From Candidatus Moraniibacteriota bacterium (GTDB lineage Bacteria > Patescibacteriota > Minisyncoccia > Moranbacterales > UBA11712): a stretch of DNA of 54,593 nt. Of the stretch, positions 2,928-47,406 are shown in pieces. Positions within the stretch are counted from its first letter, which is position 1; each line of letters begins with the position of its first letter. Location: assembly GCA_030679895.1 (NCBI GenBank), contig JAUXSN010000007.1, positions 1 to 54,593 of the forward strand. Reading direction: 5' to 3'. The notes under the pieces were generated by a model. It was not told the DNA's origin, searched no databases, and was given only the letters and a program-made list of their open reading frames with translations. Position numbers and translations under genes: made by a program.

Positions 2928-3950
2928 ATGGACAAGGAAAAAATAATCAGCATTAAGTCAAAATTTCTTATTGAAATCACTAAAGCTCAAAGCGAGAAGG
3001 AACTTTATGATATAAAGGTGAAATACGCCGGGCGAAACGGCGAACTTACTAAAATACTTAAAAATTTGAAAAATCTTCCGGCGGAAAAGAGAAAAGAAAT
3101 CGGACCACTGGCAAATCAGGCGCGCCAAGTTATCGAAAAGACTTATGAAAAACGCCGCAAAGAACTCGGTTCGCAGATCGACTGGGAAAAAGAAAAGATC
3201 GATGTGACGATTCCCGGAGAAAAAGCCTCCCGCGGCAGTCTTCATCCGATTACCTTGGTTTATAGGGAAATCGAGAAAATATTTTCCTCGATGGGCTTTG
3301 AAGTTGTCGAAGGGCCGGAGCTCGAGACGGATTGGTATAATTTCACCTCGCTTAATTTTCCACTCGATCATCCGGCGCGCGATATGCAGGATACTTTTTG
3401 GATAAAATCTCCGAAGGAAAAAATGGTTTTGCGCACCCATACTTCGCCGGTGCAGGTACGATACATGGAGAAACAAAAACCCCCTTTTCGAATAATTGTT
3501 CCCGGAAGAGTATATCGCAATGAAGCGACGGACGCCGCGCATGAACATACCTTGCATCAATTCGAGGCTCTTGTCGTTGGAGACGATATAAATGTCGGCC
3601 ATTTCAAGTATATTGCGAAAGAATTTTTCAGCGCTTTTTTTGGTAAAAATATAAATATCCGCCTTCGGCCAAGCTTTTTTCCGTTCACGGAACCAAGCTT
3701 TGAATTTGATATCAGTTGTACGGTTTGCGGCGGAAAAAAATGTCCCTCGTGCAAAAATTCCGGCTGGCTGGAAATCGGCGGCGCGGGAATGGTCAATCAA
3801 AATGTTTTTGTGTCAGCCGGATACCTGCGAAATCGATATCAAGGCTTTGCCTGGGGATTTGGCATCGAACGCCTCGCAATGATGAAATACAAAATTGATG
3901 ACATCCGCTGGTTTGAGAGCGGGGATTTGAGGTTTATTAAGCAGTTTTAG
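2928..3950 (+). CDS. pheS: Phenylalanine--tRNA ligase alpha subunit
   Basis: LHPITLVYREIEKIFSSMGFEVVEGPELETDWYNFTSLNFPLDHPARDMQDTFW, class II aaRS motifs, FAWGFGIERLAMMKY. Confidence 0.97.
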   Translation: MDKEKIISIKSKFLIEITKAQSEKELYDIKVKYAGRNGELTKILKNLKNLPAEKRKEIGPLANQARQVIEKTYEKRRKELGSQIDWEKEKIDVTIPGEKASRGSLHPITLVYREIEKIFSSMGFEVVEGPELETDWYNFTSLNFPLDHPARDMQDTFWIKSPKEKMVLRTHTSPVQVRYMEKQKPPFRIIVPGRVYRNEATDAAHEHTLHQFEALVVGDDINVGHFKYIAKEFFSAFFGKNINIRLRPSFFPFTEPSFEFDISCTVCGGKKCPSCKNSGWLEIGGAGMVNQNVFVSAGYLRNRYQGFAWGFGIERLAMMKYKIDDIRWFESGDLRFIKQF

Positions 3951-3952
3951 TA

Positions 3953-3975
3953 TTCCTAATCTCGTAGATTAGGAA
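3953..3975. repeat. Short palindrome at pheS 3' end
   Basis: TTCCTAATCT-CGT-AGATTAGGAA, 10-bp perfect arms, 2 nt after the pheS stop. Confidence 0.85.
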
Positions 3976-3983
3976 AATAATTT

Positions 3984-6014
3984 ATGAAGTATAGTTATAC
4001 TTGGCTCAAAGAATTATCTGGAACAAAAAAGTCGCCAAAGCAATTGGCGGAGCTTTTGACTATGCGCTCATTTGAGTTTGAAAACATAAAAACCGAAGGA
4101 AAAGAAACCCAACTCGAATTTTCCATTTTACCCAACCGCGGACACGACGCGCTTTCGCATATCGGAATGGCGCGGGAAATATGCGCGTTGGAAAGACGGA
4201 AGTTTTCGCAGACGTCCCCATTCCACTTGGAAACTAAGTTTCCAAGTGGAATGGAAGTGAAAATTACGGACAAAAAACTTTGCCCGCGTTACATCGGAGC
4301 GGTTTTAGAAAATATCAAAGTAACGGCTTCACCCAAATGGATGCAGGAAAGGCTTGTCGTTTGCGGGATAAAACCAATAAATAATATTGTAGACATTACA
4401 AATTATGTCATGCTTGAAGCGGGCCAGCCGCTTCACGCTTTCGATGCAAAGAAAATATACCAGATACCAGATACTAAATACCAGATACTTATCCGCCGAG
4501 CCAAGAAGAATGAAGAAATAAAATTATTGGACGAAAAGATTTATAAGCTTACCGAAAACAATCTCGTGATTGCTGACTTCAAAAAAGCGCTGGCATTGGC
4601 AGGTGTGATGGGCGGGTTTGAATCATCCATAAACAGCAAAACCACTTCAATAATTCTTGAATCAGCCAATTTCAATTCGACGAGCATCAGGAAAACGAGA
4701 GCTTTGCACAGCATAATCACCGAATCGTCGCATCGCTTCGAGCGCGACATTGACCCGAATCTGGCGGAAACAGCCATGGCGCGCGCGATTATATTGATCA
4801 AAGAAATAGGCGGAAAAAATATTGAAGTTACCGCGCTATCTGACGTTTATCCGAAAAAAGCGAAGCCCTGGCAGATAAAATTGGATACAAACTATGCAAA
4901 TAGTTTACTTGGTGAAAAGATTCCAATTTCAAAAATGAAAAATATTCTTGAAAATCTCGGGATTAAATTACTTGGAAACTTAGTTTCCAAGTTGAATGTT
5001 GAAGTTCCAACTTATCGGATTGATCTCAAGACGCAGGAAGACCTCATCGAAGAAATCGGCCGCATCTACGGATATGAAAATATCAAAGAGCAGGCGCCGT
5101 GTGTCGAAATAAAAACTCCGCCTCAAAACGCGAAAAGGGACTTCGAAAATAAACTTCGTGATATTCTGGTCGGCCTTGGATTTTCGGAAGTGATGAATTA
5201 TTCATTCTATGGCGCTGAAGATGTTGCGAAATGCAATTTGAAAATTGAGGATCATATCGAAGTGGCGAATCCCTTAAGTTCGGAACAGCAGTACTTGCGC
5301 CGAAATTTAATCTCAGGCCTTTTGAAAAATATAAGACTAAATCTGAAAAATTTCTCTGAGGTTCAGATTTTTGAAATTGGGGAAAAGTTTTGCAATGATA
5401 AGGAGAAGTTCAGTGAAATACCACTCTTGGTCGGAGCATTGGCGAATGATGATGCAAAAAAATCTCCCTTCTTTAAACTAAAAGGAATGTTTCAAGAGCT
5501 GCTCCAAAAAACAGGAATTAGAAATGCTGAATACAAGGCGCTGAACGAAGAGTATAAATTCTGGCATCCGACCCGGGCAGCGCAGATTATTATAAACGGA
5601 AAGAAAATTGGCAGAATTGGAGAAATCAGCCCAATTGTCTTGAAAAATTATGGCATAAAGCGACGGGTGGCTGTTTTTGGACTTAAGATTGAAGAACTGA
5701 TAAAAATCGGCGCTCAAGATAAGCAGTATAACTCAATCAGCAAATTTCCAACTGTGGAGCGCGATATTTCTATGTTTGTCGGAAAAGAAACAAAATATGC
5801 CGACATAGTTTCAAATATTCAAAAGAATGGAGGAAATCTCGTGAAGAACGTCGAGCTGTTTGATGTTTTTGAGAAAGAAGGCGAAAAGAGCCTGGCGCTC
5901 CGCATCAAAATCGGATCCAATTCAAAAACATTGACCTCCGGAGAAATTGACGCGGTGATGGAAAAAATAGTCTCTTCGCTGGAAAAAAATTTAAAAGTGA
6001 AAGTGAGAAAATAG
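3984..6014 (+). CDS. pheT: Phenylalanine--tRNA ligase beta subunit, short form apparently lacking the N-terminal EMAP-type tRNA-binding domain
   Basis: LPNRGHDALSHIGMAREICAL, LALAGVMGG, EEIGRIYGYENI, C-terminal anticodon-binding (FDX-ACB) domain ending in KNLKVKVRK. Confidence 0.95.
   Translation: MKYSYTWLKELSGTKKSPKQLAELLTMRSFEFENIKTEGKETQLEFSILPNRGHDALSHIGMAREICALERRKFSQTSPFHLETKFPSGMEVKITDKKLCPRYIGAVLENIKVTASPKWMQERLVVCGIKPINNIVDITNYVMLEAGQPLHAFDAKKIYQIPDTKYQILIRRAKKNEEIKLLDEKIYKLTENNLVIADFKKALALAGVMGGFESSINSKTTSIILESANFNSTSIRKTRALHSIITESSHRFERDIDPNLAETAMARAIILIKEIGGKNIEVTALSDVYPKKAKPWQIKLDTNYANSLLGEKIPISKMKNILENLGIKLLGNLVSKLNVEVPTYRIDLKTQEDLIEEIGRIYGYENIKEQAPCVEIKTPPQNAKRDFENKLRDILVGLGFSEVMNYSFYGAEDVAKCNLKIEDHIEVANPLSSEQQYLRRNLISGLLKNIRLNLKNFSEVQIFEIGEKFCNDKEKFSEIPLLVGALANDDAKKSPFFKLKGMFQELLQKTGIRNAEYKALNEEYKFWHPTRAAQIIINGKKIGRIGEISPIVLKNYGIKRRVAVFGLKIEELIKIGAQDKQYNSISKFPTVERDISMFVGKETKYADIVSNIQKNGGNLVKNVELFDVFEKEGEKSLALRIKIGSNSKTLTSGEIDAVMEKIVSSLEKNLKVKVRK
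4218..4254. repeat. 37-nt near-perfect palindrome inside pheT coding sequence
   Basis: CCATTCCACTTGGAAACT-A-AGTTTCCAAGTGGAATGG; 18-bp perfect arms, 1-nt spacer. Confidence 0.95.
4457..4491 (+). repeat. Heptanucleotide word array inside pheT
   Basis: ATACCAG ATACCAG ATACTAA ATACCAG ATACTTA (5 x 7 nt), encoding IYQIPDTKYQI. Confidence 0.9.
4970..4992. repeat. Second copy of the pheT palindrome core, in a different reading frame
   Basis: ACTTGGAAACT-T-AGTTTCCAAGT; same core as 4225-4247. Confidence 0.92.
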
Positions 6015-13722: not shown

Positions 13723-13745
13723 ACTCCAACATTCAATGTTGGGGT
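13723..13745. repeat. Short palindrome at glyA 3' end
   Basis: ACTCCAACATT-C-AATGTTGGGGT (one G.T), 3 nt after the glyA stop; related copy at 47385. Confidence 0.85.
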
Positions 13746-47384: not shown

Positions 47385-47406
47385 ACTCCAACATTCAATG
47401 TTAGGT
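47385..47406. repeat. Degenerate copy of the glyA-3' palindrome at the murJ 3' end
   Basis: ACTCCAACATT-C-AATGTTAGGT. Confidence 0.8.

Follow-up and report, generated by a model that had tools for sequence, protein, structure and literature searches.

A RAYT-linked palindrome within pheT and other genes of a Moraniibacteriota bacterium, and its probable conversion in place

The pheT locus and its palindromes

The window, the whole stretch of 54,593 nucleotides analysed here, comes from a Candidatus Moraniibacteriota bacterium and carries pheS followed by pheT, whose product has 3pco_B as its top sequence match in the PDB (E 2.5e-90). Within pheT the sequence ACTTGGAAACT-N-AGTTTCCAAGT, named F1 here, occurs exactly twice (Table 1). 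The first copy lies inside a longer palindrome with perfect 18-bp arms (4218-4235 and 4237-4254) separated by a single base, and the arms of the second are perfect over 11 bp. When up to three mismatches are allowed, these two copies remain the only ones in the window, and none was found in 100 dinucleotide-preserving shuffles of it. The copies begin at codon positions 2 and 3, respectively, and are read as HLETKFPSGM and LLGNLVSKLN. A sequence-only reading of this stretch had described the same palindrome twice inside pheT in two frames; the copies, the longer arms of the first and the peptides named for both are exactly as it gave them.

Table 1. Genes and palindromes of the window
Feature	Position	Strand	Remarks
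pheS	2928..3950	+	upstream of pheT; translation typical of the PheRS alpha subunit
F4 family palindrome	3953..3975	.	TTCCTAATCTCGTAGATTAGGAA (TTCCTAATC..GATTAGGAA); in the pheS-pheT gap
pheT	3984..6014	+	phenylalanine-tRNA ligase beta subunit, 676 aa; hosts both F1 copies
Palindrome with 18-bp arms	4218..4254	.	pheT loop 1; outer 7 bp CCATTCC/GGAATGG
F1 copy	4225..4247	.	ACTTGGAAACTAAGTTTCCAAGT; translated (H)LETKFPS
F1 copy	4970..4992	.	ACTTGGAAACTTAGTTTCCAAGT; translated LGNLVSK
F3 family palindrome	13725..13743	.	TCCAACATTCAATGTTGGG; stop-rich family; called intergenic
F3 family palindrome	47387..47405	.	TCCAACATTCAATGTTAGG; at a gene edge

The two other palindrome families of the window have RAYT genes of their own in the source genome (G000, 1.03 Mb in 57 contigs), at G000:C2:4399 for F4 and at G000:C27 for F3.

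The two pheT segments had been taken as candidate lineage-specific insertions, and the alignment of PheT with relatives does not bear this out. Median lengths of the two loops are 34.5 and 29 aa in palindrome-bearing proteins and 34 and 28 aa in palindrome-free ones (the palindrome-free loop-2 row of G009 is mis-parsed, which does not affect the median), and the E. coli protein aligns across loop 1 with no gap. A plain insertion of 23-24 nt at pheT is ruled out by these equal loop lengths. The palindrome at 4970 is also not particular to one lineage, as G006 and G003 have it at the same site as G000 and G002 has one there with another core; what stands of the earlier reading is that the copies lie in loops of essential proteins. 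At other F1 sites the net gain relative to the congeneric genome G001 falls short of the length of the element, being about +12 nt in the ROK gene, +15 in DnaX, +33 for a double copy in SMC, 0 in CapA and -9 in Elp3. Such small gains may reflect either overwriting or an insertion that was followed by trimming or by decay in G001.

Most genomes of the family carry a palindrome in PheT loop 1, drawn from different palindrome families, and in G007 and G002 it corresponds to a RAYT encoded in the same genome. The outer arms of the window palindrome (CCATTCC/GGAATGG) are identical to those of the G007 PheT palindrome CCATTCCTAAAGC..GCTTTAGGAATGG, which would fit a replacement by F1 of the middle part of an older palindrome; the case stands alone and might be due to chance. 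At the position occupied by F1 in miaA of the source genome, the RAYT-free genome G001 carries another palindrome, rich in GC, CCCCGCCCTTCGCGAAGGGCGGGG (L163:14352).

F1 copies in genes and the RAYT gene

At a tolerance of three mismatches the source genome holds 22 F1 copies, of which 14 are exact, while the reversed pattern gave none in the same search. The earlier suggestion of a dispersed element with further genomic copies, in several frames, is thus supported. The copies are located within or beside genes, and all three frames are represented among them, giving LETKFPS, LGNLVSK or TWKLSFQV. Their hosts, named from Pfam except for PheT and the glycosyltransferase-like protein, are a ROK kinase, PGA_cap, DNA topoisomerase I, MnmA, a radical SAM protein (Elp3-like), RuvX (two copies), DnaX, YchF, SMC, MiaA, the glycosyltransferase-like protein and PheT (two copies). 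F1 is read through in every gene examined, and its central base tracks the frame, TNA being a non-stop codon in one frame and NAG in another. That one DNA sequence gives three different peptides also upholds the argument that its identity lies beyond protein-level selection.

A scan of 84,980 species genomes, a set that may lack close relatives of the window, found the exact motif in Patescibacteria only, namely in Moran-, Zambryski-, Giovannoni-, Sungi- and Taylorbacteria and in unnamed Parcubacteria. Among exact copies in other genomes, 31 of 47 lie inside ORFs. Overlapping tandem pairs of F1, about 42 bp long, are present at L020:1982-2023 and in L018, L019 and L003, and encode 13-14 residues such as LETKFPSGNLVSK. 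In Parcubacteria GWA1_40_21 (L201, L213, L218, L225, L228) the motif lies mostly between genes, has extended arms and looks like a terminator, and it is possibly reused there. A DNA uptake sequence was also considered and dropped, as the copy number of F1 is far too low.

Location with respect to genes was scored for seven palindrome families, five of them with their own RAYT, over about 448 kb of the source genome, leaving aside the RAYT cassettes of F1, F2 and F5. Stop-poor families (F1, F2 and F7, open in at least four of six frames) have 17 of 22 sites in genes, whereas stop-rich families (F3-F6, mostly with one to three open frames, F3 being mixed) have 2 of 33 (Fisher p = 5e-8); individual coding or intergenic assignments may be wrong because the ORFs were called by a crude mechanical procedure. 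F1 by itself, again without its RAYT cassette, has 11 of 12 sites in genes. It is open in four of six frames when both strands are counted, which makes genes accessible to it. The plain reading of this split is blind placement followed by selection. Such a split by stop content inside a single genome suggests that an 'extragenic' location is an outcome of selection and not a property of insertion.

Two of these families have further features. F2 (TGGAAGTTTAGCTTCCA) forms REPIN-like inverted doublets of about 37 bp (L191:17069-17339, L172, L181), several of which are in frame within large genes. F6 (TTCCTAAAGTTNAACTTTAGGAA; L175, L181, L183, L187, L188, L190) is intergenic at nearly all scored sites; no RAYT of its own was found, and F6-like palindromes accompany RAYTs in G002 and G007.

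The RAYT linked to F1 is a Y1 transposase of 213 aa encoded at G000:C22:18166-18804, and F1 is present three times at its gene, upstream (18110), in frame inside (18612) and downstream (18810). The protein scores above the Pfam cut-off for Y1_Tnp (PF01797); its HUH residues N79, H80 and H82 are invariant and its tyrosine is in a YTKYFN motif. The NCBIfam model REP_Tyr_transpos gives 22.5 bits, far under its cut-off of 80 bits, and a profile sequence search of the PDB returned nothing useful. Only a fold search with the AlphaFold model (pLDDT 85.4) gave a match, and its top PDB hit is 4er8 (E 8.6e-6), the E. coli RAYT in complex with a REP hairpin.

Equivalent cassettes, each carrying the core of its own genome, are present in G006, G002, G009, G103 and G131. 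Of 44 RAYTs from 12 genomes, 37 have the cognate palindrome upstream, 32 in frame inside the gene and 34 downstream, and 39 have it in at least two of these three places. The in-gene palindromes lie either before the HUH motif (around residues 51-69) or after the tyrosine (around 148-158). RAYT clades sort by palindrome type, and 'double-foot' RAYTs of the GTAG..CTAC type (G006_L131, G007_L098, G007_L117) share a supported clade with those of the ACTTGG type. A second type of Y1 protein, with an MPNHLHG motif (L129, L128), has its own palindromes around and/or inside the gene, of a GAGACGC type in L129.

Palindrome and RAYT do not always occur together. G003 has six F1 copies and no F1-type RAYT was found there, and for the PheT loop-1 palindromes of G004, G005 and G006 a cognate RAYT was not found in the genome concerned; for these, loss of the RAYT or incomplete assemblies must be assumed. 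G001 has neither a Y1 gene nor a copy of F1. That the F1 RAYT moved horizontally between G000 and G006 in recent times is rejected as far as the family is concerned, because its locus is syntenic, beside NUDIX and SecD, and divergence at fourfold-degenerate sites is at the level of housekeeping genes.

Shared sites and the change of core

Sites with identical boundaries in G000 and G006 are found in ROK, PGA_cap, TopA, MnmA, PheT loop 2 and inside the RAYT gene. Over these six groups the palindromes are identical at 138 of 138 positions and the flanks are 81% identical; fourfold-degenerate sites of the genes concerned are 43-56% identical, which is near saturation. The palindromic DNA is thus kept in relatives, and the pattern that would have spoken against the earlier reading, the same peptide from diverged, non-palindromic DNA, was not found. 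Exactly the same boundaries recur at about ten sites across two to four genomes, and copies at matching gene positions agree within a genome even where the cores differ between genomes.

A change of core is seen in G002, whose syntenic RAYT has the core AAGTTCGGYTT. All ten G002 copies examined (one further weak copy lies outside this set) have this core or a close variant, and all are at sites common to another genome: PheT loop 2, MnmA, two in RuvX, ROK, a thymidylate kinase-like protein, a glycosyltransferase-like protein and three RAYT copies. Relative to G000 the arms are 95% and the cores about 31% identical, most changes being paired on both arms, and the peptides at shared sites become LEAELPS or LGSSASK. 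The presence of the new core at all ten old sites suggests conversion in place rather than fresh transposition. Homogenisation in G002 is imperfect, as some of its copies have broken arms. Copies in G007 are mostly broken as well, although their number is small. Decay of the palindromes after loss of the RAYT, as the broken G007 copies might indicate, was set aside because these copies are few and arms are broken in G002 too.

We consider F1 and its RAYT to be, with little doubt, a REP/RAYT system. The reading as a whole, a RAYT-linked palindrome of the REP type which is kept in genes by selection and converted in place, is probable. According to it, F1 would be the REP-type palindrome of a chromosomal RAYT, an HUH/Y1 single-strand nuclease that presumably recognises and cuts the hairpin of single-stranded F1 and joins copies of it elsewhere. 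Insertion would be indifferent to genes, and selection would retain stop-free copies in tolerant loops. Cut-and-copy conversion, with other copies as donors, would then rewrite long-resident copies where they stand, a process that would keep copies identical and allow a new core to sweep all old sites. No benefit to the host gene would be needed, the peptides being a tolerated and probably neutral by-product. The conversion step taken by itself, which is drawn from comparison of sequences, is somewhat favoured. A stronger form, in which the RAYT acts as a genome-wide converter of hairpins and rewrites all resident palindromes in concert, those of essential genes included, seems to us evenly balanced between true and false. 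If it is true, peptides in unrelated proteins would shift with the sequence preferred by the transposase while their positions and the protein lengths remain fixed.

The main rival to conversion in place is repeated targeting of the same sites, in which the system is again REP/RAYT and strong target sites are hit independently time after time. Unrelated palindrome families in PheT loop 1 of at least five relatives, and the two different palindromes of miaA in G000 and G001, are what such re-insertion would produce. However, it would also have to reproduce boundaries that are exactly equal at some ten sites in two to four genomes, and the flanks of F1 sites have only a weak CC/GG at the edges and no strong target-site motif was seen in them. 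Moreover, after the switch of core none of the ten G002 copies examined is at a site found in G002 only. We regard repeated insertion as unlikely.

Selection gene by gene for a hairpin in mRNA or DNA (for a folding pause, stability or attenuation), with the RAYT being incidental, could account for the long-term conservation of sites and pairing and for changes on both arms. It is highly improbable, because the identity spans unrelated genes and frames, the core change is concerted, stop content alone accounts for location, and G001 lacks both the palindrome and the RAYT. More doubtful still is a palindromic element of the Rickettsia type, specialised in in-frame insertion into genes and unrelated to RAYTs. 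In-frame copies in essential genes are shared with such elements, and the earlier likening of F1 to them holds to the extent that F1 is an in-frame intragenic palindrome. However, a dedicated RAYT has F1 both within its gene and on either side of it, sister families in the source genome are intergenic, and the CGTC tag of RPE-4 and RPE-6 is absent in and beside F1; F1 is thus a RAYT-linked palindrome of the REP type and not a relative of the Rickettsia elements. That LETKFPS or LGNLVSK are functional peptides under constraint is hardly credible despite read-through in all genes examined, since one DNA sequence yields three peptides, LEAELPS/LGSSASK stand at the same sites in G002, and PheT without a palindrome is normal.

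On the question of how REPs spread, orthologous intragenic sites provide a marker-rich record which separates transposition to new sites from conversion in place, here pointing to conversion. Palindromes linked to RAYTs are common across the reduced genomes of Patescibacteria, where they alter loops of core proteins (PheT, TopA, SMC, DnaX, MnmA, MiaA and RuvX), which can mislead annotation and phylogeny.

Relation to known REP/RAYT systems

In-frame palindromes of this kind are already known. REPs in frame have been published both in genes (PMC3733652) and in RAYT genes (PMC6006769). No paper linking RAYT and Patescibacteria was found in the open-access literature, nor did that literature yield an account of a radiation in Patescibacteria, of families divided by stop content inside a single genome or of cores that change in concert while their sites stay fixed. 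Di Nocera 2013 (PMC3733652) describes intragenic GTAG/CGTC REPs in frame in genes for DNA repair, replication and tRNA; F1 differs from those REPs in having neither a GTAG nor a CGTC tag. The TIRtron/TIRYT category, as set out in the same paper, comprises a RAYT-like gene with non-GTAG inverted repeats at its flanks, and this is the arrangement found here.

The Rickettsia elements RPE-1, RPE-4 and RPE-6 resemble F1 in being in-frame palindromes within many genes. Their sequence, judged by description, and their host are different, and a dedicated RAYT is present here. RPE-4 and RPE-6 have been equated with CGTC REPs in PMC3733652.

TnpAREP subclass 2.4 has REPs in frame inside the transposase gene and 'double-foot' near-perfect palindromes (PMC6006769). 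Both features are shared by the system described here. However, insertion in subclass 2.4 is generally between the HuH and Tyr motifs (PMC6006769), unlike the positions before HUH or after Tyr observed here. The 'orthoswitch' of Nunvar 2013 (PMC3686654), in which orthologous RAYTs have different palindromes, is shared as well. In the model given there, new copies spread and old ones decay, whereas here old sites retain the palindrome with a new core; the pattern of G002 is not what spreading to fresh sites and decay at old ones would yield, and conversion in place does yield it.

F1 has the foot ACTTGG and lacks the GT[AG]G of classical REPs. It is not a classical GTAG REP on two counts, the absent foot and a location that is not predominantly extragenic, and it differs from described REP/RAYT systems also in its patescibacterial host. 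With REP/RAYT (TnpAREP), REPtrons and REPINs (Nunvar 2010, PMC2817692; Bertels and Rainey 2011, PMC3116915; Quentin 2018, PMC6006769) it shares an HUH/Y1 RAYT flanked by the palindrome that belongs to it, a separate palindrome family for each RAYT, the presence of several RAYTs in a genome, and dispersed copies. By gene, arrangement and fold, the F1 system belongs with REP/RAYT in the broad sense.
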